64,000 bases of DNA, from NCBI RefSeq assembly GCF_000374545.1, contig NZ_KB894590.1, positions 62,001 to 126,000 of the forward strand, given 5' to 3'. The stretch is from Anaeromusa acidaminophila DSM 3853 (GTDB lineage Bacteria > Bacillota > Negativicutes > Anaeromusales > Anaeromusaceae). Made by a program: the position numbers and the translations under genes. Below the pieces are notes generated by a model. That model was not told the DNA's origin. It saw only the letters and a program-made list of their open reading frames with translations, and ran no database searches. Positions 1,644-57,540 of this stretch are shown here, piece after piece; within the stretch, counting starts at the first letter, position 1; each line of letters starts with the position of its first letter.

Positions 1644-2501
1644 ATGACAAGAAAAATAACGGTTGCGCAGCGAGTGAAAAACATAGTGCTTATGGGAATT
1701 GGTTCGGTGATTGCCGCCGCAGGGCTGGAAGTATTTCTGGTGCCCAATAATATTATTGACGGAGGTATTGTCGGTATTTCCATTATGGCCAGCTATTTGA
1801 CCGGGTGGTCGCTGAGCGTATTTTTGGTGCTCTTGAACTTACCATTTTTGTACTTGGGATATACGCAAATTGGTAAAACTTTTGCTTTTTCCACCTTGTT
1901 TTCTATTATTTCCTTGGCTTTCTGGGTAGGGGTATTTACGCCCATCCCGGAGGTGACGAACGATTTGTTTTTGGCGGCTGTCTTCGGCGGCATTACCATT
2001 GGCGTCGGTATCGGCATTATTATCCGGCATGGAGGCTGTACCGACGGTACGGAGATGATTGCCATCCTGATGGATAAACGCACTAGCTTTTCTATTGGAG
2101 AAATTATCATGTTCTTCAATTTGTTTATTTTGACAGCGGCTGGTTTTGTTTTTTCATGGGATAAGGCCATGTATTCTCTTGTGACCTATTTTATAGCCTT
2201 TAAAGTTATCGATATTACTTTGCGCGGCTTGGATGAATCAAAAGCAGTTTATATTATTTCCGACCAAATGGAAGACATCCGCGATGCCTTGATGGCGCGC
2301 CTTGGCAGAGGGGTTACGATTCTGCATGCTACAGGCGGCTATAGCAAAGAAGAGAAGCCTGTGCTGTACTGCGTGGTGACACGCTTAGAGGTGGCGAAAC
2401 TCAAGTCGATTGTCAGCGAGTGGGATGAAACGGCTTTTGTAACCATTTCGGATGTCCATGAGGTTATGGGCGGGCGTTTTAAGAAAAAAGCAATCCATTA
2501 A
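1644..2501 (+). CDS. YitT family membrane protein (DUF161 + DUF2179)
   Basis: Integral membrane protein of 285 aa with five or six hydrophobic helices in residues 10-195 and a soluble C-terminal DUF2179 domain (from about residue 205, including the RGVTILHATGGYS-like stretch). This two-part layout is characteristic of the YitT/YpjC family common in Firmicutes. The biochemical role of the family is unsettled, so no substrate is claimed. Start at ATG 1644 follows AAGGGAGG. The gene stands alone between two terminators. Confidence 0.88.
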   Translation: MTRKITVAQRVKNIVLMGIGSVIAAAGLEVFLVPNNIIDGGIVGISIMASYLTGWSLSVFLVLLNLPFLYLGYTQIGKTFAFSTLFSIISLAFWVGVFTPIPEVTNDLFLAAVFGGITIGVGIGIIIRHGGCTDGTEMIAILMDKRTSFSIGEIIMFFNLFILTAAGFVFSWDKAMYSLVTYFIAFKVIDITLRGLDESKAVYIISDQMEDIRDALMARLGRGVTILHATGGYSKEEKPVLYCVVTRLEVAKLKSIVSEWDETAFVTISDVHEVMGGRFKKKAIH

Positions 2502-2514
2502 TTTTGTAAGCGAC

Positions 2515-2565
2515 AGCGGGTTTGCTAAGAGAGATCATCCTCCTTGGCAGCCTGCTTTTTGTTTT
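2515..2565 (+). terminator. Rho-independent terminator after yitT-like gene
   Basis: A long imperfect stem pairs 2515-2529 with 2542-2555 (about 14 bp with one bulge and several G-T pairs), followed by TTTTTGTTTT. Confidence 0.75.
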
Positions 2566-2692
2566 CGCCTGCTCTTTCGGAAAGCGGCGTCAGCGTGGAA
2601 TAAGTCGATGGTTCCTTGCCAAAACGGCAGGGAAGGACGTTGTATTTAGCGAATAGGCATAATAGCAAAATAAGGCGGGGGATACAGAACGA

Positions 2693-3676
2693 ATGACGCA
2701 AAGAATCTTAGAAGTTCAGAATTTGAATATTTCCTTTGGTGAAGGGGACCAGTCTGTTGCTGCGGTGGCGGAATTGTCCTTTGATCTGCGGGCAGGGGAA
2801 GTTGTGGGCTTAGTGGGTGAGTCCGGCTGCGGCAAATCGGTGACGGCGCTGGCTATCATGCGCCTCTTAGAGGAACGGGCGCATGTATCTGGGAAGGTGC
2901 TAGTAGACGGAACGGATGTGTTGACTCTGTCGGAAACAAGGATGTGTTCTTTGCGGGGCGATGCGTTCTCCATGGTATTTCAGGAGCCGATGACGTCGCT
3001 TAATCCAGTGCAGACGATTGGTCAGCAGTTGGATGAGGTGTCATTGCTGCATCGCCAAGTATCGCGACAGGAGGCGCGGGCTTTGTCCGTGGAAATGCTG
3101 ACCAAAGTAGGCATTCCCCGGCCGCAGGCGATTTGCGCGGAATATCCGCACCAATTGTCCGGCGGCATGCGGCAAAGAGTGATGATTGCTATGGCGCTGG
3201 CTTGTCGGCCGCGTCTTTTAATTGCCGATGAACCTACAACCGCGCTGGATGTAACCATTCAGGCGCAAATTTTGGAACTGTTGCGTACCCTGCGAGACGA
3301 GACGGATGTAGGAATTTTACTCATTACGCACGATTTGGGCGTGGTGGCGGAATTATGCGACCGGGTTATCGTTATGTATGCGGGCCAGGTGGTGGAAGAA
3401 GCAGGTGCGGAGGCTTTATTTGACGCGCCTCAACATCCGTACACTTGCGGGCTGTTGCAGTCCATACCTTGGCATGACCGTAAGGAAGAGAAGCTGCAGC
3501 CCATTCCTGGGCAGGTGCCGTCGCTGCATTGCATGCCGACAGGTTGCCGCTTTGAACCACGCTGCCCTCACGCAGAGGCACGCTGTCGAGAATATCCTCC
3601 CTTGCTAGAACGGATGAAGGATGGTCGCTATTGCCGTTGCTGGCTGTATGGAGAAAAGGGGGGAGCGCAGCGTTGA
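2693..3676 (+). CDS. Oligopeptide/dipeptide ABC transporter ATPase (OppD/DppD type)
   Basis: ATP-hydrolysing subunit of a peptide importer, 327 aa. Walker A is GESGCGKS near residue 44, the signature is LSGGMRQR near 157, and Walker B is [12 protein letters not shown] near 178. The C-terminal oligo/dipeptide domain carries the Cys-containing stretch [15 protein letters not shown] typical of OppD/DppD iron-sulfur tails. Its stop overlaps the start of the OppF-like partner by four bases, so the two are co-translated. No binding protein or permease gene adjoins the pair, and an M29 aminopeptidase follows, which suggests peptide use. OppD versus DppD cannot be separated by eye. Confidence 0.93.
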
Positions 3677-4644
3677 AAACGCCGATTTTAGAAGTGAAGG
3701 GCCTAAAGAAATATTTTGATGTGCGCGGTGGTCTTAACGGCAAGGTAGTAGGACAAGTTAAAGCCGTAGATGATCTTTCCTTTTCTTTGTTCGCCGGAGA
3801 AACATTCGGCCTGGTGGGTGAGTCTGGTTGTGGCAAATCAACCGCAGGACGCACGATTCTGCGGTTGATGGAGCCTACGGCAGGGAAGATTTTTTTTGAA
3901 GGCGAAGATTTGGCGGAGCTGGGAAGCACGGCTTTGCGTCGTAAACGACGGGATTTTCAGATGATTTTTCAGGATCCCTACGCTTCGCTAAATCCCCGTA
4001 TGTGTGTATTTGATATTGTCGGCGAGGCCTTAGCGGCTCACGGCTTGAAGGATGCCGCTGCGTTACGGCGGCAAGTGGAGGAAACTCTCGAATTATGCGG
4101 ATTGCCGATCGAATACGGCAATCGTTATCCGCACGAGTTTTCGGGCGGTCAGCGACAGCGAATCGGTATTGCCCGAGCTTTGGCGCTGCGCCCTAAATTA
4201 ATTATTGCCGATGAGCCGGTTTCCGCGTTGGATGTTTCCATTCAAGCGCAGATTCTCAATTTATTGCAAGAGCTTCAGCAACAATTAGGGCTGACGTATT
4301 TATTCATTTCGCATGACTTGTCGGTAGTGCGTCATATTAGTGATCGCGTAGGGGTGATGTATCTGGGACGTCTATTGGAGTGCGCTCCGGCGGAAGAGCT
4401 GTACAGTCGGCCATTGCATCCGTATACGCAGGCCTTGCTTTCGGCGATTCCCGCGGCGAATCCCAAACGTAAACGAGAGCGTATTGTCTTGCAGGGAGAT
4501 GTGCCGTCTCCTGCCAATCCGCCTCCAGGGTGCGCATTTGCGCCTCGCTGTCCTAAAGTTATGGAACGATGCCGCCTTGAGCGGCCTAGGTTACAGGCGG
4601 TGGAGTCGGAACGGCATCTGGCGGCTTGTTTTTTATGGGAGTAA
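3673..4644 (+). CDS. Oligopeptide/dipeptide ABC transporter ATPase (OppF/DppF type)
   Basis: Second ATPase of the peptide importer, 323 aa from the TTG at 3673. That start overlaps the preceding stop (TTGA) and sits behind a GGGGGGAG ribosome site; an upstream in-frame ATG at 3631 lies deep in the previous gene and lacks one. Walker [10 protein letters not shown], signature FSGGQRQR, Walker [13 protein letters not shown] and the C-terminal CAFAPRCP tail are all visible. An insert after the first strand ([20 protein letters not shown]) is typical of OppF/DppF. Forms a heterodimer with the preceding product at the inner membrane. Confidence 0.92.
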
Positions 4645-4686
4645 TACCCGTCCCTTAAGATATTGCGGAAAACAGGAGGAACGATC

Positions 4687-5802
4687 ATGGCGGAAGAACG
4701 TATCGTAAAGTTGGCTGGGAATCTCATTAATTACTCGGTGGAACTGCAGCCGGGCGAAAAGATTTTAATCGAAGTGTTTGACGGCGGCGAAGATCTGGCG
4801 CAGGAGCTGGTAGCGGCAGCGTACAAGGCCGGCGGCGTTCCCTTTGTCAGCGTGAAAAACATGGTGCTCCAGCGGGAACTGCTGCGGCAGTGCTCTTCTG
4901 AACAGGTAGAACGTATTGCTGCTTGGGAAAAAGCGCGGATGGAGGAAATGGACGCATACATAGGCCTGCGAGCGTACTATAACCAGAGCGAGATGGCGGA
5001 CTTGCCGCAAGAGCAGTCACAGCTTTATCAACGTTTGTGGTGGCATCCGGTACATTCGGAAGTCCGGGTCAATCGCACAAAATGGTGCGTGCTGCGTTAT
5101 CCCAATGCGGCGATGGCGCAGATGTCCGGTATGAGTACGGCGGCTTTTCGGGATTTTTATTTTCAAGTTACGAACTTGGATTACTCCCGCCTTGCGGAGG
5201 CGGAAGAACCGCTGCGTACACTTATGGAAAAAACGAAAGAAGTGCGCATCCTGGGGCAAGGAACCGATCTTGCTTTTTCTCTTGAAGGCGTTGCGGTGAG
5301 CAAATCTTGCGGCTTGCGTAATATTCCCGATGGCGAAGTGTTTACAGCGCCAGTGAAGCAGTCGGTAAATGGAGTCATTTCCTACAACTGTCCTAGCGTG
5401 TATCAAGGGGTTACGTTTGCAGATGTGCGCCTGGAATTTTCCCAGGGGCGGATTGTGAAGGCTACCGCCAATCATACGGAGCAATTGAACCAGATCTTGG
5501 ATACCGATGAAGGAGCGCGCTATATTGGTGAGTTTGCGTTAGGCGTAAATCCTCACATTGTCAAGCCGATGGGCGATATCTTATTTGATGAAAAAATTTC
5601 CGGCAGCTTCCATTTCACGCCGGGGAATGCTTATGAAAACACAGACAACGGCAATCGCTCCGCCATTCACTGGGATTTGGTATGCATGCAGACGCCGGCG
5701 TACGGCGGCGGGGAGATTTGGTTTGACGGCCGCTTAGTGCGCAAAGACGGACTGTTTGTTATAGAAGAACTGCAAGGACTGAATCCACAGGCATGGCGCT
5801 GA
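4687..5802 (+). CDS. M29 family aminopeptidase (AmpS/PepS type)
   Basis: Metal-dependent aminopeptidase of 371 aa, cytoplasmic, releasing N-terminal residues from imported peptides. The C-terminal half holds the family's metal-site region: FDEKISGSFHFTPGNAY followed by NRSAIHWDLV. Start at ATG 4687 is chosen because AGGAGG lies at 4675-4680; an earlier ATG at 4663 has no ribosome site. It lies 42 bp behind the peptide ABC ATPases and probably shares their transcript. No terminator was seen directly after it; the next gene has its own promoter. Confidence 0.92.
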   Translation: MAEERIVKLAGNLINYSVELQPGEKILIEVFDGGEDLAQELVAAAYKAGGVPFVSVKNMVLQRELLRQCSSEQVERIAAWEKARMEEMDAYIGLRAYYNQSEMADLPQEQSQLYQRLWWHPVHSEVRVNRTKWCVLRYPNAAMAQMSGMSTAAFRDFYFQVTNLDYSRLAEAEEPLRTLMEKTKEVRILGQGTDLAFSLEGVAVSKSCGLRNIPDGEVFTAPVKQSVNGVISYNCPSVYQGVTFADVRLEFSQGRIVKATANHTEQLNQILDTDEGARYIGEFALGVNPHIVKPMGDILFDEKISGSFHFTPGNAYENTDNGNRSAIHWDLVCMQTPAYGGGEIWFDGRLVRKDGLFVIEELQGLNPQAWR

Positions 5803-5832
5803 AATCATTTTGAGAACAAAAGAAAATTGAAA

Positions 5833-5866
5833 CTGTAACAAATCTGTCACGAACATTTGATACAAT
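5833..5866 (+). promoter_or_regulatory. Activator-type promoter of tolC with CTGTAAC/CTGTCAC direct repeat
   Basis: Two 7-base half-sites, CTGTAAC (5833-5839) and CTGTCAC (5844-5850), are separated by 4 bases and end exactly 10 bases before a TACAAT -10 element at 5861-5866. No good -35 hexamer is present. An 11-base repeat period replacing the -35 is the classical arrangement for PhoB/OmpR-family response regulators. The same layout recurs before the RND operon (7260) and, on the other strand, before the 12859 gene. Confidence 0.7.
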
Positions 5867-5928
5867 AACAGCAATTGAAACTTAAAGAGCAAGAAACGGC
5901 TTTTGGAGTCTGGATTTAGGAGGTACCT

Positions 5929-7185
5929 ATGAAAAAAATTCTTGTCGGAGGCGTGTCCGCTCTGCTTTGCATCAGTTTGTTGGGAACGGTGCATGCGGCA
6001 GCGGCGCCGATGCAATTGTCATTGGAAGAAAGCATTCAGATGGCGCTGGCCAAGCATTATGATTTATCCTACGCAAAAGCAGCCCGGGAAAAAAGCTATT
6101 GGAGTTTGAAAGAGGCAAAAAATAACAAAGGACTTTCCGCTTCTTTTACTCATACCGATACAGTGGCGCAAAGCGTAAATAGCTTTCAAAATAAAGTGGC
6201 GCTGACGCTGCCGGTATATAGCGGCGGTAGCTTGGAAGGGAAAATTAAACAAGCCGAAGAATCCTTGCGTGTTGCGGATTTGGATGTAAATGCGGCGCAG
6301 CAGCAAGTTAAATTGAATGTGGTAAGCAACTATTTGTCTGTTCTGGAGTATCATAAAATTTGGCAAGTAAGCCAAGATACAACCAAAAATTATGAAGATC
6401 ATTTAAAGTTGGTGGAAAACAAATATGCCGCAGGTATGGTGGCTAAACTCGATGTGCTGACCAGTCAGGTAGACTTGGCGAAAGCGCAAGACAGCCAGGT
6501 GCAGGCGGAAAACAACTACCGCAATGCCGTGGCGGCTCTGAACAATGAATTGCAGCTGCCCCATGGTACGGAGTTGGACCTGAAGGATGCCTTTAATGCG
6601 GACGTCTATCCGTTGTCGCTGGAAGAGTGCTTGGCTTATGCCAAAGAGCATCGGCCTGAGATTGCCCAGTATAAGGCCAAAGTGAGCAGTGCGAAGACGG
6701 GGATTGACGTAGCGCGAAGCGGCTATCGCCCTACTGTTGCGCTGTCTGCATCTCAAGGCTGGAATGATGATCAATTTCCAGGCTCCAAAAACAGTAATTG
6801 GTCGGTTTCTTTGACTACTTCATTAAACTTGTTTGACTCTGGTGTAACCGGGGCGCAGGTAGAACAGGCTAAATACAACTTGAATATGGTTAATGAGCAA
6901 AAAGGCAAGGAAGAAGACGCGGTCTTGCTGGAAGTGCGCCAATATTATTTGAGCATGCAGGAAGCGGCCAAGCGAATCGAAACGAATAAAGTGGCGATTC
7001 AGCAGGCGGAAGAAAGCCTAAGCATTCAAAAAATGCGTTATGAAGTAGGCGTGGGCACGAACCTCGACTTGCGGGACTCGGTATTATCTTTAGATCAAGC
7101 TAAACGAGACAGCCTTCAAGCGCTGTATGACTACAATATCAATAAGGCGAAACTGGAGCATTCCATGGGGCGTCCGGTGGAATAA
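5929..7185 (+). CDS. TolC family outer-membrane efflux channel
   Basis: Outer-membrane/periplasmic tunnel protein of 418 aa. A signal peptide (residues 1-24, ending HAAAA) is followed by two repeats of the OEP fold: long coiled-coil helices with beta-barrel strands such as NKVALTLPVYSGGSLEG and SVSLTTSLNLFDSG, each turning into helical stretches rich in Ala, Gln and Glu. Start follows AGGAGG at 5919-5924. It is expected to dock on the adaptor and RND pump encoded next, although a terminator at 7199 separates the transcripts. Matching regulatory boxes on both promoters imply shared control. Its presence shows that the organism has an outer membrane. Confidence 0.93.
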   Translation: MKKILVGGVSALLCISLLGTVHAAAAPMQLSLEESIQMALAKHYDLSYAKAAREKSYWSLKEAKNNKGLSASFTHTDTVAQSVNSFQNKVALTLPVYSGGSLEGKIKQAEESLRVADLDVNAAQQQVKLNVVSNYLSVLEYHKIWQVSQDTTKNYEDHLKLVENKYAAGMVAKLDVLTSQVDLAKAQDSQVQAENNYRNAVAALNNELQLPHGTELDLKDAFNADVYPLSLEECLAYAKEHRPEIAQYKAKVSSAKTGIDVARSGYRPTVALSASQGWNDDQFPGSKNSNWSVSLTTSLNLFDSGVTGAQVEQAKYNLNMVNEQKGKEEDAVLLEVRQYYLSMQEAAKRIETNKVAIQQAEESLSIQKMRYEVGVGTNLDLRDSVLSLDQAKRDSLQALYDYNINKAKLEHSMGRPVE

Positions 7186-35988: not shown

Positions 35989-37686
35989 ATGTACGACTAT
36001 AAAGGACGCTTAATGAATGCAAGGGTTAACGCCTTTTACTTTCCAGGTTTGTTATCTGCTTTGTCTATTACGGCGAGTATGTTTCTAGATATTGCGATTG
36101 TAGGACAGATGCTAGGCCCAGTCGCTATGGGGGCGGTCAATTTAGCCTTGCCCCTGACCATGGTGTTTAATATGGTATATATGCTATTGGGAATTGGCGG
36201 TGAAGTGTTGGTTTCAGCTGCGAAGGGAGCTGGCAATAAGCAGGAAGCCAATACGTTGTTTTCGTTGAGCATGTTTACCCTTATTGCGGTAAGCATTGTG
36301 ATTATGATTGGAGGTCTTGGCGCTCGAGAGCTGATTGCTTTGACTTTAAGCGGTGGAAATGCCGAGATGGCGCCCTTGGTGTTGCGTTATATTGGCATTA
36401 TGTTTGTAGTGGCGCCGCTGATGATTGGCATTACCAGTATGACTTATTTTGTCAAAGTAGATGCCCTGCCTAAACTTGCGGCAGGAGTTATGGTATTTGT
36501 AAATATAGTGAGCGTTGTCAGCAAGATTTTATACCTTGGACCCTTGCATTTAGGGATTGAAGGGGCGGCATATGGAACTATAACGGGCTTTGTCGCTGGA
36601 TTTTTGCTATTAGTGCCGTATTTGTTTTGGCGCAGAAAAAGAACTCTTTCTTTTGTTCCTCTAGCTGTGAAAGATTTTCGGCGTTTAGGAAATATTATTA
36701 TTGCAGGCCTTCCTTCGGCGATGGGGCAAGGGCTGGGAGCGGTGACAACGTTTTGCACTAATATAGTGATTCTGGATATTGCTGGTAAAAGCGGCATCGT
36801 TGTAAATACGGTCTGCTCTTCTATCTCTATTTTCATTTCTTCTTTTCGCTATGCTGCGACCAGTGCCATGGTTCCCATTGTTGGCGCTCTCTTTGGCGAA
36901 AGAGATTGGTGGTCAATGCATCAGGTGGCTATGCGCATTACTAAAATGGTTATGGGCTTTGTTATTGTTAGCATTTTTCTTATTGAATTGCTTCCTGGTA
37001 ATTTATTGGCGTTTTTCGGAGTTCATGATGCGGCCATTATGGAAATGGGAGTGCCAGCCTTGCGAATTTATGCACTAGGATTTCTATTAAGTTCTTTGAG
37101 CTACATCTTAATGACGTATATGCAGACTACGGCTCGCAAGTTTTTTTCTATTGCCATCAGTGTGGGAACGGAGCTTTTGGCAATTTTCTTTATTTATTTG
37201 CTTGGATATTCATTGGGGAATATTGGAGTTTGGAGCCATACTATTGCAGCGCAGATAGTCTTGTTATTTTTGAGTATTTTAGCGGCTAAATACATTGGAA
37301 AAAAATTTAATGGCAAGTACCATGGTGTTTTTATACATGAGGTGCAGCCGGATTATGTCATGGGCAATTCAATTTATGCGACTCAAGAAGAGGCGGTTGG
37401 CTATACGGACATGATTGGAGAGTTTTTTGCGGCTAAGCAAATTTCACCAAAGGCTATAGGAGAGGCCCAAAAGCTACTGCACCAAGTTTTGATGGATATT
37501 GTGGAGAAAGAAAAGAATCCGCAAAAAACCATTGATATTATGGCATTATTACATGACGGGCATATAAAAATTCGTCTCCGTGACGACAGCGGCTTGGAGG
37601 AATCGTTACAACTGGAAAATGATGAGAGAATTGGCCGTTTGAGTGTGATGGGCTACAATAATACGTATATAAAAATTCCTGTTTAA
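35989..37686 (+). CDS. MATE family transporter with C-terminal SpoIIAB/RsbW-like ATPase-fold tail
   Basis: A 565-aa protein. Residues 1-445 form the twelve-helix MATE fold, a cation-coupled exporter with two similar halves. The last 120 residues are soluble. Their pattern resembles the HATPase_c_2 fold of anti-sigma kinases: a helix (ISPKAIGEAQKLLHQVLMDI), a strand pair ending HIKIRLRDDSG, and a terminal GRLSVMGYNNTYIKIPV strand. The asparagine of the N-box and the glycine-rich loop are not evident, so ATP binding may be lost. MATE proteins are usually about 450 aa, so the tail is a true extension. A GCGGAGGGG site precedes the start. Confidence 0.85.
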   Translation: MYDYKGRLMNARVNAFYFPGLLSALSITASMFLDIAIVGQMLGPVAMGAVNLALPLTMVFNMVYMLLGIGGEVLVSAAKGAGNKQEANTLFSLSMFTLIAVSIVIMIGGLGARELIALTLSGGNAEMAPLVLRYIGIMFVVAPLMIGITSMTYFVKVDALPKLAAGVMVFVNIVSVVSKILYLGPLHLGIEGAAYGTITGFVAGFLLLVPYLFWRRKRTLSFVPLAVKDFRRLGNIIIAGLPSAMGQGLGAVTTFCTNIVILDIAGKSGIVVNTVCSSISIFISSFRYAATSAMVPIVGALFGERDWWSMHQVAMRITKMVMGFVIVSIFLIELLPGNLLAFFGVHDAAIMEMGVPALRIYALGFLLSSLSYILMTYMQTTARKFFSIAISVGTELLAIFFIYLLGYSLGNIGVWSHTIAAQIVLLFLSILAAKYIGKKFNGKYHGVFIHEVQPDYVMGNSIYATQEEAVGYTDMIGEFFAAKQISPKAIGEAQKLLHQVLMDIVEKEKNPQKTIDIMALLHDGHIKIRLRDDSGLEESLQLENDERIGRLSVMGYNNTYIKIPV

Positions 37687-48347: not shown

Positions 48348-49174
48348 TGGAGATCCTATTTCCTCGCACTGTTGCAGAAATGCAGGAGCTATTGGCGGTG
48401 CAGCCAACTGGTCGTGTCATTGCCGGCGGCACTGATTTTTGGGTGCGGCAGCGCAGGCTGCCTGCGCCTCCTGTCTTGTTTTCCGCGGAACGTTTGGAGG
48501 AATTGCAGCAGGTTGAAGTACGCAAACATGGTCTTTTCATTGGCGCTGGAGTTACCTATCAGCAGTTGCTGGATCTGCCGAAGCTGGAAGAATGCTTTCC
48601 GGCGTTGCGGCAGGCAATCGCGGTTGTGGGGTCGCCTCCCATACGTCACAGCGCTACCTTAGTCGGCAATGTCTGTACAGCTTCGCCTGCAGGCGATACA
48701 TTGCCGCCGCTATACGTGTTGGAAGCCTCTGTGGAGGTGGCAGGAGAAAAAGGGCGGCGAAGTTTGCCCATTGAGGAGTTTATTGAAGGCCCGGGGCGGA
48801 TTGGGCTGGCGGCCGGCGAGTTTGTGACAGGCGTGCAAATTCCTTGGGCTGAGGAGCAAGTAAGTTCTGCTTATTTTAAAGTGGGCCGCCGCAAGGCCTT
48901 GGCTATTTCAATTGCCAGTTTAGCGGCGCAATGGAAACTGCAAGCAGATAAAACCATAGCCTGCATGAAGCTGGCTTGGGGCAGCGTAGGCCCCACGGTG
49001 GTGCGCCTGCCTCAGGTAGAGGCATTTTTGCAGGGGAAGCCGTTGAACGACGAAGTGTTGCGTCGTGCAGGAGAACTGGTGAAAGACGGGGTAACGCCGA
49101 TTGACGATATTCGCGCTAGCGCGGCGTACCGACGGCAACTGGCAGGTAATTTGCTTCTGCGTCTCAGTAATTAA
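48347..49174 (+). CDS. Molybdenum hydroxylase FAD-binding subunit
   Basis: A 275-aa flavin subunit passing electrons to NAD or another acceptor. FAD motifs are VIAGGTDFWV near residue 25 and IRHSATLVGNVCTASPAGD near 99; a C-terminal CO-dehydrogenase-flavoprotein-type domain follows. ATG 48347 overlaps the previous stop (TAATG), with GGGGAGGA upstream. Only 31 bp separate it from the STAS gene and no terminator is seen, so transcription probably continues. Confidence 0.93.
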   Translation: MEILFPRTVAEMQELLAVQPTGRVIAGGTDFWVRQRRLPAPPVLFSAERLEELQQVEVRKHGLFIGAGVTYQQLLDLPKLEECFPALRQAIAVVGSPPIRHSATLVGNVCTASPAGDTLPPLYVLEASVEVAGEKGRRSLPIEEFIEGPGRIGLAAGEFVTGVQIPWAEEQVSSAYFKVGRRKALAISIASLAAQWKLQADKTIACMKLAWGSVGPTVVRLPQVEAFLQGKPLNDEVLRRAGELVKDGVTPIDDIRASAAYRRQLAGNLLLRLSN

Positions 49175-49205
49175 AAGTTTGTGCAGTAAAGAAAGGGGTT
49201 ATCCT

Positions 49206-49538
49206 ATGGAAATTTCAGTACGAAATGAAGCGACATGTACAGTGATTGCCGTAACAGGACGTCTTGATACAAGAACCGCGCCGGAGTGGGAAAAGCAGTG
49301 CGGCGATATTATTCAAAACGGAGGGACTAAGTTTGTTTTGGATTTGACGTCATTGGAGTACGTCAGCAGCGCCGGGCTGCGCTGCGTTTTGGCGATCGCC
49401 AAGAAACTAAAGGCGTCAGGGGGAGCGTTGGCTCTTTGCGGTTTGTCGGGCTTGGTGCAGGAGGTATTTTCCGTATCCGGCTTTGACAGTTTTTTCCCAG
49501 TGTACGAAACAGCGGAAGAAGCGGTTGCGAATTTTTGA
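49206..49538 (+). CDS. STAS domain anti-sigma-factor antagonist
   Basis: A 110-aa SpoIIAA/RsbV-type protein. It has VTGRLDTRTAPEWEK near residue 20 and the phosphorylation region LEYVSSAGLRCV near 53, with the target Ser in SSAG. In partner switching the unphosphorylated form captures the kinase-type ATPase encoded next; the PP2C phosphatase encoded two genes later would restore it. AAAGGGG precedes the ATG. No sigma factor gene is in the run, so the output may be another protein. Confidence 0.94.
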   Translation: MEISVRNEATCTVIAVTGRLDTRTAPEWEKQCGDIIQNGGTKFVLDLTSLEYVSSAGLRCVLAIAKKLKASGGALALCGLSGLVQEVFSVSGFDSFFPVYETAEEAVANF

Positions 49539-49560
49539 GAATAGCATAGGAGGTAGTGCT

Positions 49561-49977
49561 ATGTCATCGACTACAGCGAGTCGCATTTTTGCGGCGCAAG
49601 ATGAAAATGTACCGGCTATTACTGCCTTTATTACCGAACAGGCGGAACAGGCGGGAGTAAGTCCGAAACGGATTTTGCAATTAGAACTGGTCATTGAAGA
49701 AGTGGTCGTGAATATCTGCCATTATGCCTATGAAGTGCCGCCAGGAGAAGTGGTGATTCGCACCTATTGCGAAGAGGATAAATTTGGCATTGAATTTGAA
49801 GACAGCGGTATTCCTTTCGACCCTCTGGCGGCAGCGGAACCGGATTTGAAAGCAGGCTTAAATGAGCGGGAAGCCGGAGGGCTTGGTATTTTTCTCGTGC
49901 GGCGTATGACCGATGAAGTGCATTACCGCCGAATTGGTGGACAAAATATTTTGGCGGTAGCTGTTTCACGCTTATGA
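49561..49977 (+). CDS. SpoIIAB/RsbW-like serine kinase/anti-sigma ATPase
   Basis: A 138-aa GHKL ATPase. The N-box is ELVIEEVVVNICHYAYE with Glu and Asn, G1 is FEDSGIPFDP, and the nucleotide lid is GGLGIFLVRR, so ATP binding and kinase activity are expected. AGGAGG precedes ATG 49561. It ends in ATGA shared with the binding-protein gene. It presumably phosphorylates the STAS partner directly upstream. Confidence 0.94.
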   Translation: MSSTTASRIFAAQDENVPAITAFITEQAEQAGVSPKRILQLELVIEEVVVNICHYAYEVPPGEVVIRTYCEEDKFGIEFEDSGIPFDPLAAAEPDLKAGLNEREAGGLGIFLVRRMTDEVHYRRIGGQNILAVAVSRL

Positions 49978-50987
49978 AAAAAAGGCTGTATGTAATTTTC
50001 GGGGTTGCGCTTCTGGGACTTTGCCTGCTCTTTTGGCAGAAGCCGGGAGTGGCGGAGGAACAAGAACGTGAAGGCAAGAAGCCTTTTACCTTGATTCTGC
50101 AATGGGTGCCGCAAGCGCAGTTTGCCGGATACTATGTGGCCTTGGAGAAGGGGCTGTACAGAGAAAAGGGCCTAGACGTCCGCATTATCAGGGGCGGAGC
50201 GGATCGAAGCGGCGTGGACTATGTACAACGAGGCGAAGCGGACTTTGCGGTGCTGTTTCTGTCAGGCGCCTTAGCGGCGCGTGATCAAGGCGTGCCGCTA
50301 GTGAATGTGGCGCAAGTTGTCAATCAATCCAATTTAATGCTTATTGGCTGGAAGGATCAGGGGATCGAAAGCGTGCAGCAATTGCATGGCAAAAAGATCA
50401 GTCTTTGGGGCGGCGTGTTTCAGGCTGATTTTCAAAGTTTTTTTGCCGCGAGAGGACTTCAGCCGCAGTTTTTGCCGCAGTACTACTCGGTGAACTTGTT
50501 TATTAACAGAGGTGTTGCAGCTTGCTCGGCTATGCATTACAACGAATACCATGTTTTGTATCAAGCAGGCATTGATGCTCAGCAATTGAGTACGTTTTTT
50601 ATGAAAGACTACGGCTGCGGGTTTCCGGAAGATGGCTTGTATTGCTTGGAGAGTACCTGGAAAGAGCATCCCCAAGAAAGTCGGGCGTTTGCAGAAGCTT
50701 CTCTGGCTGGCTGGCAGTATGCGGCCGAGCATGAAGAAGAAGCTCTAGACATAGTGATGAAGCATGTCCAAGAGGCCAATTTGCCAACGAATCGCGCACA
50801 TATGCGCTGGATGCTGAAAACCATTTTGGCGACCATTATTCCAGAGGGCAATTCTTCCTGGAAGTTGGGCGTACTGGCTAAGGCGGATTATCGGCGAACA
50901 GTAGAGGCGCTGCAATGGCATGGCTTGCTCCGCACCAATCCTTCTTATGAAAATTTTTACCGGGGGATAGGCAATGATGTTCAATAA
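49974..50987 (+). CDS. NMT1/THI5-like periplasmic solute-binding protein
   Basis: A 337-aa binding protein with an N-terminal signal or anchor helix (about residues 5-20). The NMT1/THI5 pattern is LQWVPQAQFAGYYVALEKGLY, then EADFAVLFLSGALAARDQG. Relatives bind thiamin pyrimidine precursors, riboflavin, sulfonates or nitrate. No transporter genes follow; instead it overlaps the sensor phosphatase gene by 14 bases. It may therefore present a ligand to that sensor rather than feed a transporter; this is inference. Confidence 0.9.
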   Translation: MKKRLYVIFGVALLGLCLLFWQKPGVAEEQEREGKKPFTLILQWVPQAQFAGYYVALEKGLYREKGLDVRIIRGGADRSGVDYVQRGEADFAVLFLSGALAARDQGVPLVNVAQVVNQSNLMLIGWKDQGIESVQQLHGKKISLWGGVFQADFQSFFAARGLQPQFLPQYYSVNLFINRGVAACSAMHYNEYHVLYQAGIDAQQLSTFFMKDYGCGFPEDGLYCLESTWKEHPQESRAFAEASLAGWQYAAEHEEEALDIVMKHVQEANLPTNRAHMRWMLKTILATIIPEGNSSWKLGVLAKADYRRTVEALQWHGLLRTNPSYENFYRGIGNDVQ

Positions 50988-52902
50988 ATGGAGCCTTACA
51001 TGGCGGCTGACAGTTCTCATTATGGCGGGAGTCGGCACCATTCTGACAGCGGTGATTGGCTATAGCTATTTTTCAGCCAAACAATTGCTGGAAGAAGAGA
51101 TGATGAAAGAGGCTCAGCATGTAGCGGCAGCGGTCACTTCACGAATCGAAGTTTCTTCAAGGCGCGTGGAAGGCATGGCGCAGGGACTGGCGGCAGTAAT
51201 GGAAGTTATGCCGGTTTCTACGGAGCAGTCCTATCAGTTGATGGAAAAGTTTTTGCAAGGCCAAGAGGATGTGTTTGGTACGGCGGTTGCTTTACGGGCA
51301 ACTAAAAGCCATCCGGTCGGCATCGGAACTTATCTGTATCGCACCTATGGGGGCTTGCAGAAGATTTCGTTAGGATCGGTGCAAGCTTATGAAACAAAGG
51401 ACTGGTATTTACTTCCCGTAGAGATGAAAAGCGCTGTTTGGAGCGAACCCTATTTTGACGAGGGCATTAGCAATGTGTTAATGGCGACCTATTCGGCGCC
51501 TGTTTTTTCTGCGTCTGAGCCAGGTGTCGTGCGGGGGATTGTAACAGGGGATATGTCCCTGAGTATTCTTTCGGAGCTTTTGGAGTCCTTGGAGTTAGGT
51601 CGAGAAAATTACGCTTTTATTATTTCCGGACAAGGGCGGTTTATTGCGCACCCCACTAGCGGCTATGTCATGCGGGAGTCTATTTTCAGCGTGGCTGAGG
51701 ACTTGCAAGACGTCGGGCTGCGCGAATTGGGGCAAAAAATGATTCAAGGACAAAAAGGCTATGTTTCTCATACCAGCAAAGTAAATGGTAAAACCGGCTG
51801 GGTGATGTATATGCCGATCCCTTCTACCGGCTGGTCTTTGGGTATCTTTTTTTCGCGTGATGAGCTTATGGCGCGTGTCTTTGATTTGAGTCGCACCCAA
51901 TGGTATTTAGGGATTGGCGGCTTTTTGCTGCTTTGTCTTGTGGTACTTGGTATCGCCCGTTCCATTACTAGGCCGTTGCGCCAACTCGAGCAGGCTACGC
52001 AAAAGCTGGCGGCAGGAAATTTTGAGGCGACGATTCCGGCTATTTCCGGGCGGGATGAAGTGGCGCGCTTGGCGGAAGCTTTCATGATTATGATCAGCGA
52101 ACTGAAAATTTACATGGAAATGATGCAGGCCACTGTGGCGGCAAAAGAACGCATTGCCAGCGAATTGCGTATCGCCAGCTCCATTCAAATGGGGCTGGTG
52201 CCGAAAGAATTTCCTCCTTTCCCGGAGCGTAGAGAATTTGATCTTTTTGCATTGCTGGAGCCGGCCAGGGAAGTGGGGGGAGATTTTTACGATTTCTTCT
52301 TCCAGGATGAGGAGACGGAAACCTTATATTTAGTGATTGGCGACGTATCGGATAAAGGGATGGGCGCGGCTTTGTTTATGGCCATTGCCAGAACCCTTCT
52401 GCGCTCGTTGGTGCGCGAAAAACGCGAGCCAGGAGAGCTGCTGGAGCGCCTGAACGATGAATTATCCCGCAACAATGAATCCTGCATGTTTGTCACCTTG
52501 TTTTGTGCGGCAGTCCACTTGCCAAGCGGCGCCTGCCGCTACGCCAGCGGCGGCCATTGTCCGCCCATGCTGCTTAAACCAACAGGACAACTAGTGTTTC
52601 TGAATCAAGCTAAGGGACCGGTTATCGGCGGCATGGAAGGGATGCTCTATACGGAAGGAAACTGTTTGTTGGAGACCGGGGATATGCTGCTCTTATATAC
52701 AGACGGCGTAACCGAGGCAGCTACTAAGGAGGATGAGCTTTTTGGGGAGGCGCGCTTAGAAACGGCGTTTTGCACTCGCCCTAAGGCCGCTCCTGATGTA
52801 TTGCTGCGCGAGATAAGAGTGGAGCTGAATGACTTTGCCGCAGGGGCGGAGCAGTCGGATGATATTACTATGCTGGCGTTTCGCTATTGGGGATTGAAAT
52901 AA
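50974..52902 (+). CDS. Membrane sensor phosphatase: Cache-HAMP-PP2C (SpoIIE/RsbU type)
   Basis: A 642-aa transmembrane phosphatase. TM1 (about residues 10-30), a periplasmic double-Cache sensor (about 35-300), TM2 (about 307-330), HAMP (to about 380), a short coiled coil, then SpoIIE-type PP2C with REVGGDFYDFF and VIGDVSDKGMGAALFMA metal-site motifs and a final AEQSDDITMLAFRY. It would dephosphorylate the STAS protein on sensing a periplasmic signal. Its start lies within the end of the binding-protein gene. Confidence 0.95.
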   Translation: MMFNKWSLTWRLTVLIMAGVGTILTAVIGYSYFSAKQLLEEEMMKEAQHVAAAVTSRIEVSSRRVEGMAQGLAAVMEVMPVSTEQSYQLMEKFLQGQEDVFGTAVALRATKSHPVGIGTYLYRTYGGLQKISLGSVQAYETKDWYLLPVEMKSAVWSEPYFDEGISNVLMATYSAPVFSASEPGVVRGIVTGDMSLSILSELLESLELGRENYAFIISGQGRFIAHPTSGYVMRESIFSVAEDLQDVGLRELGQKMIQGQKGYVSHTSKVNGKTGWVMYMPIPSTGWSLGIFFSRDELMARVFDLSRTQWYLGIGGFLLLCLVVLGIARSITRPLRQLEQATQKLAAGNFEATIPAISGRDEVARLAEAFMIMISELKIYMEMMQATVAAKERIASELRIASSIQMGLVPKEFPPFPERREFDLFALLEPAREVGGDFYDFFFQDEETETLYLVIGDVSDKGMGAALFMAIARTLLRSLVREKREPGELLERLNDELSRNNESCMFVTLFCAAVHLPSGACRYASGGHCPPMLLKPTGQLVFLNQAKGPVIGGMEGMLYTEGNCLLETGDMLLLYTDGVTEAATKEDELFGEARLETAFCTRPKAAPDVLLREIRVELNDFAAGAEQSDDITMLAFRYWGLK

Positions 52903-52945
52903 CAGGCGGCGTAATTTGGGCGGCCTGGTGAAAAGGGGAGCCGTT

Positions 52946-54241
52946 ATGAAGCAAAAACAGTCTGTAGAGCTGCAGATACCATTGCATGAGGAGATGCTGC
53001 CGGTCATCGTATGTTGTGCGGAGAACACCGCGCAAGCCTTTGGGTTTGGCAAAGAAGAGCAATTGAGTCTTTCCTTGGCGACGGAAGAGCTATTCGCTTT
53101 TCTCAGCGGCCAGCGGGAAGACGCCGGAGAGATGCAATTTATTTGCCGTCATGGCGGTTATTACTTGGAAGCGTCCTGCCTGTTTCCAAGGCGAGCGCTG
53201 CCGACCAAGGTATTTAACCGGACCGCTAGTATGTCGCTGGATGATGAGGCGTCGTTAGCGGAAATGGGCTTGCTATTGGCAGCTCGTACGGTAGATCATT
53301 TTTGTCTGGAAATGCTATCTGATAATCGCATGGGTTTGCAGCTGCGTCTTGAAAAACGATATCCCCAGGCCATTCCAGAGGAATTTGAAGCGCTTCCTTC
53401 CTTGGGGTTTGTTTTGGCTGAGCCGGAACGGGAAGCTTTGAAGCAGCTTGCCAGAAGGGTGCTGGCGGTTTATGGAGACAGTGCTCCGGAATTTTTTCAC
53501 TACCCCGGTAAGCTTGTGGACATGCTTGGCAGCGGTGAATATGGAGCCGTATTGATGCAAGACGGCAAGGGGCAAGTGGGCGGTGCTTTTCTTTGGCAGT
53601 GCGGCGGTAAAATGGCGGAAGGCTTTGGGCCGTATGTATTTTCCGAACAAGGCGGTATGGCCGTCGCTTTGGTAGAAGGGGCTCTTGCCAAACTGGCTCG
53701 TTCCGGTATTGTGTGCATGACCATGCGGCAGCCGACAGCACAGGCGCCTGCCGGCTATTTTGAGCCGTTGGGAGAAGTAGACTTGACGTCAGTTGGCGGT
53801 GTTACGCAGCGGCATACGGCGTTATATCGACAATTAGAAGAAGACAACGGCATGAGTGTCTTTGCCAATCCGGCAATTGAGGCGTTTTTGCGCCGGCAGT
53901 ATGAGCTTTTGGCATTGCCGCGCAAGCTGCAGCCGGCGATCTACGAAGGGGAAGAGCAATTGGCGGATTCTATTTTGTCTACTCGTTTAGACCGACGCAA
54001 GCTGACTGCTTTTCTGGCGGTATTGGCGCCTGGCGAAGACATGCAAGAAAATTTGGCTATGCATGTGACGGCTTTGCGAAAAGAGAACATCAAGAACATA
54101 TTTTTTGAGCTGGATTTAGGCAAAGCGGCCGAGGTAGAGGCGGCGCCAGCCATTTTAGCTGCCGGTTTTACGCCGCAGTTTGTGTTGCCATGGGGCGGAC
54201 AAGGCGATCTGCTCCTTTTGACGCTGCCGGAGGAGGCTTGA
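52946..54241 (+). CDS. Degenerate RsbW-like ATPase domain joined to GNAT-like region
   Basis: A 431-aa protein. Residues 1-135 follow the GHKL anti-sigma kinase layout (LSLSLATEELFAFLSG at the N-box; EMGLLLAARTVDHF then LQLRLEKRYP at the end), but the N-box Asn, the Asp-x-Gly of G1 and the glycine lid are lost, so ATP use is doubtful. Residues 150-300 and 310-431 have acetyltransferase-like features. It may be a pseudokinase scaffold in the partner-switching run. AAAAGGGGAG precedes ATG 52946. No named family was recognised for the whole. Confidence 0.75.
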   Translation: MKQKQSVELQIPLHEEMLPVIVCCAENTAQAFGFGKEEQLSLSLATEELFAFLSGQREDAGEMQFICRHGGYYLEASCLFPRRALPTKVFNRTASMSLDDEASLAEMGLLLAARTVDHFCLEMLSDNRMGLQLRLEKRYPQAIPEEFEALPSLGFVLAEPEREALKQLARRVLAVYGDSAPEFFHYPGKLVDMLGSGEYGAVLMQDGKGQVGGAFLWQCGGKMAEGFGPYVFSEQGGMAVALVEGALAKLARSGIVCMTMRQPTAQAPAGYFEPLGEVDLTSVGGVTQRHTALYRQLEEDNGMSVFANPAIEAFLRRQYELLALPRKLQPAIYEGEEQLADSILSTRLDRRKLTAFLAVLAPGEDMQENLAMHVTALRKENIKNIFFELDLGKAAEVEAAPAILAAGFTPQFVLPWGGQGDLLLLTLPEEA

Positions 54242-54243
54242 GT

Positions 54244-55356
54244 ATGCAGGGACAAACCGTCAGATGGGAAAACCTGGTTCCTGCGCATATTCGGTCTATT
54301 CAGGCCTATATTCCCAGCAAGCCCGATGATGTGCTGCGGGATATGTTTCATTGCCCGCCAATTCACCGATTGAACAACAACGAAAACGCCTTGGGGCCTG
54401 CCAAGGAGGCGCAGGCGGCTATTGCTGCCTTTGATCCGGCGGCGGCGGCTATTTATCCCAGCGGTGATGCATTTCATCTGCGTCAGCGCTTGGCGCAGAA
54501 CTTTGGCCTGGATGCGGACTGTTTCCTGGTGGGAAATGGCGCTAACGAAGTAATTGCGTTTGTGATTAATGCCTTTTGTCAGGCCGGTGATAATATCATT
54601 ACTGCGGATAAAACCTTTGCCGTCTATGAATGGGTAGCGGAGTTTTCAGGCTATCAGGCCAAGCAAGTGCCTTTGTGCGAGGAGGCCTTCGATGCGCAAA
54701 GCATGCTCAAGGCCATTGACGAGCGAACGAAAATTTTATTTGTGTGCAATCCGAATAATCCTACCGGTACGTACTGGCCGGAGAAAAAACTTCGGGCTTT
54801 TTTGGATGCCGTAGGGGGACGGCAGATAGTTGTCCTGGATGAAGCCTATGCGGAGTTTGTGGAGCAGGAGGACTTTCCTGACGGTATGAAACTGCTTCAT
54901 GAATATCCGAATTTGGTGGTTTTTCGTACTTTTTCTAAAATGTACGGGCTAGCGGGGTTGCGTATTGGTTACTTGGCAGGCTCGCCGGAAGTAGTGAATG
55001 TGATTCGCCGCACCTGTGTAGTATATTCGGTGAACGCTCTGGCTCAGGTTGCGGCCTTGGCTACGCTGGATAATCAGGGAGACCATGTAGCGAATACCAG
55101 GTCGTTGGTGCGTGAAGCGAAGGCTTTTTTGCATTGCGAGCTTACGGCAATGGGCCTGCATCATCTGGCTGGTGAGGGCAATTATATGATGATCCGCCTG
55201 CCGCTTAGTGATACCTTGGCTTACCGTAAATTGATGCAGCATGGTTTTATGGTACGAACGATGACAGGCTTTCGTTATCCCAACCATATCCGGCTTACGC
55301 TGAGTACGCTGCCAGTCATGGAAGGATTTATTAAGGCATTAAAGGCCATTTTATGA
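54244..55356 (+). CDS. HisC-like PLP aminotransferase
   Basis: A 370-aa fold-type I aminotransferase of the histidinol-phosphate group. It shows LNNNENALGPAKEA, the PLP pocket NGANEVI, CNPNNPTGTYW, DEAYAEF, the Schiff-base lysine in RTFSKMYGLAGLRIGY, and a C-terminal Arg in PNHIRLTLST. GGAGGAGG precedes ATG 54244, two bases after the previous stop. No other his gene is nearby, so it may act on another amino acid such as an aromatic one; a housekeeping hisC role is not supported by context. Confidence 0.9.
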   Translation: MQGQTVRWENLVPAHIRSIQAYIPSKPDDVLRDMFHCPPIHRLNNNENALGPAKEAQAAIAAFDPAAAAIYPSGDAFHLRQRLAQNFGLDADCFLVGNGANEVIAFVINAFCQAGDNIITADKTFAVYEWVAEFSGYQAKQVPLCEEAFDAQSMLKAIDERTKILFVCNPNNPTGTYWPEKKLRAFLDAVGGRQIVVLDEAYAEFVEQEDFPDGMKLLHEYPNLVVFRTFSKMYGLAGLRIGYLAGSPEVVNVIRRTCVVYSVNALAQVAALATLDNQGDHVANTRSLVREAKAFLHCELTAMGLHHLAGEGNYMMIRLPLSDTLAYRKLMQHGFMVRTMTGFRYPNHIRLTLSTLPVMEGFIKALKAIL

Positions 55357-55370
55357 AAACATGGTGAAAC

Positions 55371-56741
55371 ATGAAGAGGATAAAGATTTTTTCTAAAGTG
55401 CAGGAGAAGGCGGATTTAGCTTCGCCGGAAGTTGGGCGGACGTTGGTGCAGCTGGCTTTGCCGCTAATGATTTCGCTGTTGTTTCAAAATCTCTATGCTT
55501 TTGTAGATACGGTTTTCGTATCTTGGCTGGGGGATGTGCCTTTAGCGGCTGTTTCCATGGTTGTTCCCTTGATGTATGTTTCTTTGTCCATGGCCAAGGG
55601 AATTTCAATGGGGAGCATCATGCTTATGAGTCATGCCCGAGGCGGCGGCGCGGAAGAACAGGCGGTTCGCATCGCGCGCGGCATTCTGCCGCTGATGGCT
55701 TTGAGCATGTGCGTTTTTCTGCCCTTGTTGGCTCCGACGGTCAATACTGCTTTTTTTAGCGCCATAGGAGCGAATGAAGCCCTCTGGCCGATGATTCATG
55801 CCTTTATCATTTGGCTGATTCCCGGGTTCTTCGTTATGGGCTATGTGATGACAGCGGAAGCGTTCTTTATGGCTCGCGGCGATACATTGACGCCGATGAA
55901 AGCGATGGCCCTTGGCAATATAGTTAATATGGGGCTGGATCCGATCTTGATTTTTTCCTGCAATCTGGGCGTAGCCGGAGCGTCGTTAGCTACGCTTTTT
56001 GGACAAATTGTGGCAGGCGTTTACTTGTATCGGGCGCTGCGGCATTACGACTATGAATTGCCGCAGCTATGCTGGGCTGCCGGTATGCTAGGCGAATGGA
56101 AGCGGATTTTAGGACAGGGTGTTTATATTGCCATGTCCTATATAATTATTCCGGTAGGCCTATTTTTGCTTAATGCAGTGCTGGCGCAGTTTGGCCCTGC
56201 GGCGCTGGCCGCCTGGAATATGATGTCACGTTTGGAAATGCTGGTCATGCTGCCGATCATGGGACTGGGGAACGCGATGGCTACGATGATCAGCTTTAAT
56301 CTTGGGCGAAGAGAATATGAACGAGTGCGTGGCTGTGTGCGTTCTTTTTTTAAGATTTCCTTGGCTGTAGCCATGCCGGTTATGCTGTTATTTGTGCTGT
56401 TGCCGGAGACGGTGCTGGCTTTGTTTCAACCGACGCCGGAACTTCTCAGGCTAGGCTCCTATGCGCTAAGAGCGTCCGGCGTGGCTGGCGTATTTATGAC
56501 GGTAGTTTTCGCTTTGCTGGGCGTAGCGCAGGGGTTGAAGCGTCCGGTGTATATGATGGCGGTGTCAGCTACGCATGCCTTGGGCGTCCGCGTGCCCATG
56601 GCTTATTTTCTCGCTGCTTTTTGGGGCGAAACCGGCGTGTTTTGGAGTCACACGGCGGCTGCGTTTACGGCGGCAATTCTGGCGGGTTTTTTAATTGCCA
56701 AGCTGCTTAGCAGTATAGAGCGGTTGCCTAAGGAGGTATAG
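55371..56741 (+). CDS. MATE family efflux transporter
   Basis: A 456-aa twelve-helix exporter of normal length, unlike the tailed relative at 35989. The first half has LVQLALPLMISLLFQNLYAF and the conserved DTVFVSWLGD; the second half repeats the pattern. It is coupled to H+ or Na+. The gene lies 14 bp after the aminotransferase and 1 bp before the nucleosidase gene, so it belongs to the same transcript and may export a compound made by its neighbours. Ribosome site is weak, suggesting coupling. Confidence 0.93.
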   Translation: MKRIKIFSKVQEKADLASPEVGRTLVQLALPLMISLLFQNLYAFVDTVFVSWLGDVPLAAVSMVVPLMYVSLSMAKGISMGSIMLMSHARGGGAEEQAVRIARGILPLMALSMCVFLPLLAPTVNTAFFSAIGANEALWPMIHAFIIWLIPGFFVMGYVMTAEAFFMARGDTLTPMKAMALGNIVNMGLDPILIFSCNLGVAGASLATLFGQIVAGVYLYRALRHYDYELPQLCWAAGMLGEWKRILGQGVYIAMSYIIIPVGLFLLNAVLAQFGPAALAAWNMMSRLEMLVMLPIMGLGNAMATMISFNLGRREYERVRGCVRSFFKISLAVAMPVMLLFVLLPETVLALFQPTPELLRLGSYALRASGVAGVFMTVVFALLGVAQGLKRPVYMMAVSATHALGVRVPMAYFLAAFWGETGVFWSHTAAAFTAAILAGFLIAKLLSSIERLPKEV

Positions 56742-56742
56742 A

Positions 56743-57540
56743 ATGTATTTGGGAAAAGTCATTGCTTTAGTGTTAGGTTTGTGGCTGACGGCGGCCGCAC
56801 CTGCTTGGGCCCAAGAATCTTGCGTATTAATTCAAGGGGCTATGGATATGGAGGTTCGCACCTTAGTAGAACAACTGGAGGAGCCGCAAACCGTAGTGCT
56901 TGCCGGCTGGACCTATTGGCAGGGACATATTGGCTCTCAAAAGGTAGTGGTTTCGCAAACTAAGGTGGGGACTACCAATGCCGCAGCGGCGACATTGCTG
57001 GGGATTCAGCGGTTTTCCCCTACGGTGATTGTCAATCAGGGGACGGCTGGAGGCTATCCGGCTTGGCTGCATAAGGGGGATTTGATTATTGGAGAAACCA
57101 TTACCAATGCGGGAGCCGTTAATGTGGCCAGACGGGAGGCTGGACAGGGGATTGAAGTGCGCGAATGGACGGTGCGCGATGAATTTGGTCCGGTTCGCTG
57201 GCAAAGCGATGCTCGCTTGGTACGCTTGGCAGAGGTTTTAAGCAAAGATTATACCCAAGGGCGGGTACATAAAGGAACAATTTTTTCCAGTGACCGCTGG
57301 TCGCGGGAGCTGGATTATATAGCGTATTGGCAAAAGAAAGAAAATGCCTTGGGGGAAGAAATGGAAGCCGCGGCTAGTGCGCAGATTGCGGCGGCGTATC
57401 AAATCCCATATCTTTGCGTGCGGGTTGTTTCCAACAATGAAGCTGCCCGGGAGCCCTGGGAGCCGGTGGAAGCCGAGCGCTTAGCGAGCGGCTGCCAAGA
57501 GTACATTTTTAAATTGGTGGCAGCTTTGCAAAATCGCTGA
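56743..57540 (+). CDS. Exported nucleosidase/phosphorylase superfamily protein (MTA/SAH nucleosidase-like)
   Basis: A 265-aa PNP/UDP-fold protein with an N-terminal signal peptide (residues 1-23, AAPAWA). The body has VLIQGAMDMEVRTL, SQTKVGTTNAAAATLLGI, NQGTAGGYP and the catalytic-type EEMEAAASAQIAAAYQIP, where MTA/SAH nucleosidases have MEGAA followed by an acid later (RVVSNNEAA here instead of SD). Substrate release of a purine base in the periplasm is plausible but the altered acid leaves the activity open. AAGGAGG precedes the start. An imperfect hairpin overlaps the stop. Confidence 0.82.
   Translation: MYLGKVIALVLGLWLTAAAPAWAQESCVLIQGAMDMEVRTLVEQLEEPQTVVLAGWTYWQGHIGSQKVVVSQTKVGTTNAAAATLLGIQRFSPTVIVNQGTAGGYPAWLHKGDLIIGETITNAGAVNVARREAGQGIEVREWTVRDEFGPVRWQSDARLVRLAEVLSKDYTQGRVHKGTIFSSDRWSRELDYIAYWQKKENALGEEMEAAASAQIAAAYQIPYLCVRVVSNNEAAREPWEPVEAERLASGCQEYIFKLVAALQNR

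Follow-up and report, generated by a model that had tools for sequence, protein, structure and literature searches.

A MATE-family exporter with a predicted, catalytically degenerate SpoIIAB/RsbW-fold tail, from a Bacillota clade of MATE-GHKL fusions

Partner switching is best known for the control of sigma factors. Modules of this kind with non-sigma outputs exist as well, and to our knowledge none of those described has an exporter as its output. A literature search on MATE proteins combined with HATPase_c_2, SpoIIE or STAS, with subscription papers mostly outside its reach, returned no description of a MATE-GHKL fusion. Transporters joined to a STAS protein have been described: SLC26/SulP transporters carry a C-terminal STAS domain (PMC8256260), and in MlaFEB the STAS protein MlaB sits on an ABC transporter (PMC7367683). 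The non-sigma switch proteins SypA and BtrV are also discussed in PMC8256260. Here we describe a MATE protein with a GHKL-type tail, encoded within a 64,000-nucleotide stretch of Anaeromusa acidaminophila DNA (the window), and the clade of fusions to which it appears to belong.

The gene at 35989–37686 (+ strand, ATG start) encodes 565 residues, which the open reading frame, Pfam and AF2 together resolve into a MATE exporter and a C-terminal pseudo-GHKL domain. The MatE family (PF01554) matches the open reading frame in two stretches (E 7.4e-23), giving the two MatE repeats. The transporter part, residues 1–440 (35989–37308, + strand), weakly matches the MATE structures 4lz6/5c6o in the PDB, with BH2163 and PF0708 as solved homologs, as well as the FepA model. 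In the full-length AF2 model (pLDDT 85.2, pTM 0.83), residues 7–439 form an all-helical core and the GHKL domain sits after the last membrane helix, presumably on the cytoplasmic side, as general MATE topology would place it. The product is thus read from sequence as a MATE-family exporter, with putative cation-coupled export of a drug or metabolite. Tail-less MATE proteins of the same genome are about 440–456 residues long, so this one is about 110–120 residues longer, in agreement with the roughly 120 extra residues that an earlier note on this DNA had reported.

That note had also assigned the tail (residues about 455–565; 37351–37683, + strand) to the anti-sigma-kinase fold. Taken alone, the 125 residues after position 440 gave no useful family match in Pfam or NCBIfam, and a tail profile built from five orthologs only reached SpoIIAB in the PDB at E 0.26 by sequence, which is not significant. 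An AF2 model of the tail (pLDDT 85.8, pTM 0.79) has the order strand-helix-helix-strand-strand-strand-strand. Foldseek searches of the PDB with this model returned anti-sigma chains (SpoIIAB, RsbW, UsfX and Rv1364c) at every one of ranks 1–18, the best at E 5.7e-7 and TM 0.77, in keeping with a SpoIIAB-like fold; the closest structures were 1th8, 1tid, 1l0o and 6m36/6m37. The motif IRLRDDSG falls within the third strand and the loop that follows, where the G1 box is expected.

Profile comparison points the same way. The five ortholog tails aligned with 13 fused GHKL tails, taken from other Bacillota MATE proteins, over 107 columns (hhalign probability 96.9, E 1.5e-10), with a score of 62.8 against a best score of 27 among 200 column-shuffled controls. 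The fused MATE tails in turn matched operon RsbW kinases at E 2.9e-17, and a joint tail profile searched against the PDB recovered SpoIIAB and RsbW (E about 6e-6). Direct hhalign comparison of the window tail with the operon kinases gave no signal, so sequence homology depends on the fused tails as intermediates. In an 18-row tail alignment (A4) HATPase_c_2 matched 12 members with E values of 1 or lower, the best being 1.4e-14; the window tail was not matched at that threshold. Thus hhalign, AF2 and Foldseek each identify the tail as a predicted GHKL domain; because intact GHKL tails were among the sequences aligned for the AF2 model, the evidence from fold and that from homology overlap in part. 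The earlier note had staked its reading on structure prediction and fold search of the tail. Both returned a GHKL fold, and its reading of the fold survives.

We next consider how widely this architecture occurs. Orthologs with the same tail are present in three other genomes examined of the genus, and in metagenome-assembled genome records labelled Negativicutes, Sporomusaceae and Megamonas; across the class, 5 of 250 sampled genomes and 2 of 91 genera carry it. Searches of the class and then the phylum with a full-length family profile retrieved further long MATE proteins with C-terminal domains of this kind, of which 16 fusions were analysed (L060–L063, L068, L102–L109 and L140–L142). Five were scanned whole: HATPase_c_2 was significant in L060 (1.2e-11) and L061 (3.2e-13), and weaker, under the curated cut-off, in L062 and L063. 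Several candidates were set aside. A Listeria match covering 87% of the query is an ordinary 1353-bp MATE gene, the match running past its stop; the long HATPase reading frames of L143, L145 and L147 are SpoIIE-GHKL proteins, L144 is a GHKL protein without MATE, and L146 contained no MATE fusion.

A maximum-likelihood tree built from the MATE parts alone (69 rows) unites every one of the 16 fusions with the window-type proteins in a single clade (support 100/99). The window group is nested within it, beside L061/L062 (97/92), a join that, like some others in this tree, links long branches and is less certain. Most simply, the tree and alignments suggest a single fusion event, after which the catalytic site decayed along several lineages, with the window protein a probable decayed member of the clade.

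The decay is evident in the N-box helix, LHQVLMDIVEK (residues 497–507; 37477–37509, + strand). Alignments of the operon kinases preserve EE...N with no exceptions, whereas the window tail has lost all three residues, with Q499 in place of the catalytic Glu and D503 in place of the Mg-binding Asn; in its orthologs the first of these positions is Q or K and the second D or E. RDDSG is partly retained, with DDSG (residues 532–535; 37582–37593, + strand) at the G1-box position; neither the ATP lid nor the G2 helix expected after it is present. The 16 fused tails show a graded picture: the catalytic Glu is present in 15 (Asp in L141), and the Mg-binding Asn is kept in five (L060, L061, L109, L140 and L141) and lost in 11. 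The least decayed fused tail found is that of the MATE-GHKL protein at 5714–7432 of L140, whose kinase site looks intact (EE...N, RDD, GGLG). A membrane-bound tail that is still active as an anti-sigma-type Ser kinase and has a STAS protein as its substrate would fit the SpoIIAB fold, and would fit the retention of the N-box Asn in those five relatives and of the G2 motif in L140. For the window protein it is very improbable: in this protein and its orthologs alike the Glu and Asn are substituted and the lid and G2 helix missing, and there is no STAS gene within 8 kb of the window gene. With these elements gone, the window tail is almost certainly not a kinase, judging from sequence.

The tail is nevertheless maintained. 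Its dN/dS is 0.08–0.13, against 0.06–0.08 for the MATE part, indicating purifying selection; together with the lost catalytic residues, this means that the domain is kept, but not as a kinase. Among orthologs, the first strand and the final hairpin are the most conserved parts, and the N-box helix is poorly conserved. The C-terminal hairpin, RLSVMGYNNTYIKIPV (37636–37683, + strand), carries a G-x-N signature common to the fused MATE tails, and its end, MGYNNTYI, is invariant among orthologs. One reading of this pattern is that the tail is a leftover GHKL fold that meets no switch protein and, the operon link having been lost, serves only the dimerisation or stability of the MATE protein. The degenerate N-box, the missing lid and G2 helix and the absent operon partners all suit it, as does a conservation maximum that lies away from the nucleotide pocket. 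We regard this as unlikely, while giving it real weight, since the tail is under strong purifying selection in different genera and its MGYNNTYI end does not vary, which would suit a binding surface equally well.

The neighbourhoods of the fused relatives connect the clade strongly to partner switching. At least one SpoIIE, STAS or RsbW gene lies near 15 of the 16 fusions, up to about 8 kb either side; L060, the exception, has none over that range. Within 1.5 kb, a distance that partly cuts off long SpoIIE genes, switch genes accompany 9 of 16 fusions against 1 of 48 ordinary MATE loci (Fisher p 3.7e-6), the 16 being not fully independent (L104 and L105 are nearly copies of each other, and L068, L102 and L141 are close to one another). 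In L061 the order is MATE-GHKL, a 268-residue protein, Cache-HAMP-SpoIIE-GHKL and STAS, and in L140 it is STAS, an unknown gene, MATE-GHKL and SpoIIE. The SAG phosphosite is kept in all 12 STAS domains aligned. Directly upstream of the MATE-GHKL gene of L060, the sole one without switch genes nearby, is a phosphopantetheinyl transferase gene (1412–1987).

Several of these loci also encode amide-forming enzymes. By Pfam, a fusion of STAS to an NRPS-type Condensation domain directly precedes the exporter gene in L068 (3102–4697) and L102 (5252–6844); a third, in L108 (1355–2947), is separated from its MATE-GHKL gene by an NRPS module (AMP-binding, PP-binding and Condensation; 2963–6595). The STAS phosphosite is kept in the STAS-Condensation proteins. 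L141 (8541–10145) and L142 (4787–6391) each encode, directly before the exporter, a 534-residue protein with an N-terminal STAS domain, which from its length and position is probably the same fusion. In L106, a sugar-transfer-associated ATP-grasp protein and a GH3 acyl-amide synthetase are encoded between the MATE-GHKL and SpoIIE genes (2041–5845), and a GNAT protein is found in the L103 neighbourhood. Beside SpoIIE in L104 (10744–12183, between SpoIIE and RsbW) and L105 (3073–4512) is a gene for a 479-residue protein with a weak, sub-threshold match to GCS2 (glutamate-cysteine ligase type 2).

The window gene itself has no STAS, PP2C or RsbW gene within 8 kb, and no partner-switching gene was seen near its orthologs L019, L021, L071 and L072. 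The earlier proposal that MATE exporters are tied to partner switching is strongly supported by the relatives, but the gene's own locus shows no such tie. Its neighbours instead encode a GGDEF protein (diguanylate cyclase), a chemoreceptor-like protein and a CAP-domain protein. These neighbours, together with the absence of switch genes near the orthologs, would agree with a different binding partner for the tail, whether a ligand or a protein, such as a chemosensory component. The neighbours of the orthologs vary across genera (L021, L071), so no partner is consistently linked, and we consider such a role quite improbable.

Elsewhere in the window, a second, tail-less MATE gene (55371–56741, + strand; Pfam) lies, as the earlier note had described, in a partner-switching run. 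From 49101 to 57540, on the same strand, follow STAS, RsbW, an NMT1-type binding protein, Cache-HAMP-SpoIIE, a 441-residue protein, a HisC-like aminotransferase, the MATE gene and an MTA/SAH-type nucleosidase, and between 49483 and 57540 neighbouring genes are never more than 15 bp apart. The first five of these (49101–54241, + strand), assigned by Pfam and hhalign, comprise the switch genes, the substrate-binding protein and a pseudo-GHKL protein: in hhalign, the N-terminal part of the 441-residue protein aligns with RsbW kinases (89%, E 2e-6), with no match in the reversed control, so a degenerate GHKL domain may sit there rather than on the second MATE. A related run occurs in L147, where SpoIIE-GHKL and STAS accompany a 36% identical homolog of the 441-residue protein and an aminotransferase like that at 54190, assigned by the start of its sequence. 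In the MATE-only tree the second MATE falls outside the fused clade. The earlier note had cited both the fusion and the operon as linking MATE transporters with the kinase fold; both are real, but the two genes belong to separate MATE lineages and represent two separate links, not one system.

Beyond the observed architecture, fold, clade membership, motif loss, neighbourhoods and selection, the explanation we favour, and think likely on balance, is that this exporter derives from a Bacillota MATE-GHKL clade whose members most likely act as an output of SpoIIE/STAS switches, and that its pseudo-GHKL tail is retained for non-catalytic docking or conformational control. In the fused relatives, the phosphorylation of a STAS protein would be governed by a sensor SpoIIE phosphatase together with an RsbW kinase; in some of them a STAS domain joined to an amide-forming enzyme would take the place of the STAS protein. 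By docking on the exporter's GHKL tail, this STAS partner would switch transport, or the coupling of enzyme to exporter, on or off. In the window protein, nucleotide binding and the operon partners would have been lost and the domain retained by selection, acting on behalf of a partner encoded elsewhere. Against this explanation counts the lack of partner-switching genes near the window gene and its four orthologs. The lid region may also be part of the SpoIIAB-SpoIIAA contact, so in a tail without a lid the canonical STAS interface may be damaged. We infer, with reserve, that docking of a STAS protein by the window tail itself is possible, somewhat short of probable, and that a STAS partner may control transport. 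A bolder version is more doubtful still: that the clade's fused tails, often pseudokinases, are phospho-regulated STAS docks, that through the STAS-condensation enzymes the SpoIIE/RsbW switch physically couples amide synthesis to export, and that the window protein represents a branch in which this system has decayed.

That an exporter clade carries the GHKL half beside SpoIIE, STAS and RsbW genes suggests that export is regulated directly, at the post-translational level, and because most fused tails lack the catalytic Asn we predict a docking role for them. The condensation, NRPS, GH3, ATP-grasp and GNAT genes linked to the fusions suggest small products. Compared with ordinary MATE exporters (PF01554; FepA, MepA and NorM, with the BH2163 and PF0708 structures), the protein is alike over residues 1–440 and differs in that its additional C-terminal residues make up a GHKL-fold domain and place it in a separate clade of fused MATE proteins. 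The tail resembles the SpoIIAB/RsbW anti-sigma factor kinases (GHKL, HATPase_c_2) in fold and in the order of strands and helices; unlike them, it has its N-box Glu and Asn replaced, is missing the lid and G2 helix, and is fused to a membrane transporter, with no sigma factor known. SypA/SypE and BtrU/V/W likewise use a phosphatase, a STAS protein and a GHKL kinase to control a non-sigma output, and the MATE-GHKL arrangement is apparently an undescribed variant of partner switching. Its nearest counterparts among transporters are SLC26/SulP and MlaFEB, likewise joined to one half of a STAS/GHKL signalling pair. The GHKL-tailed exporters mirror them: those systems carry the STAS half, whereas the window exporter carries the GHKL half.
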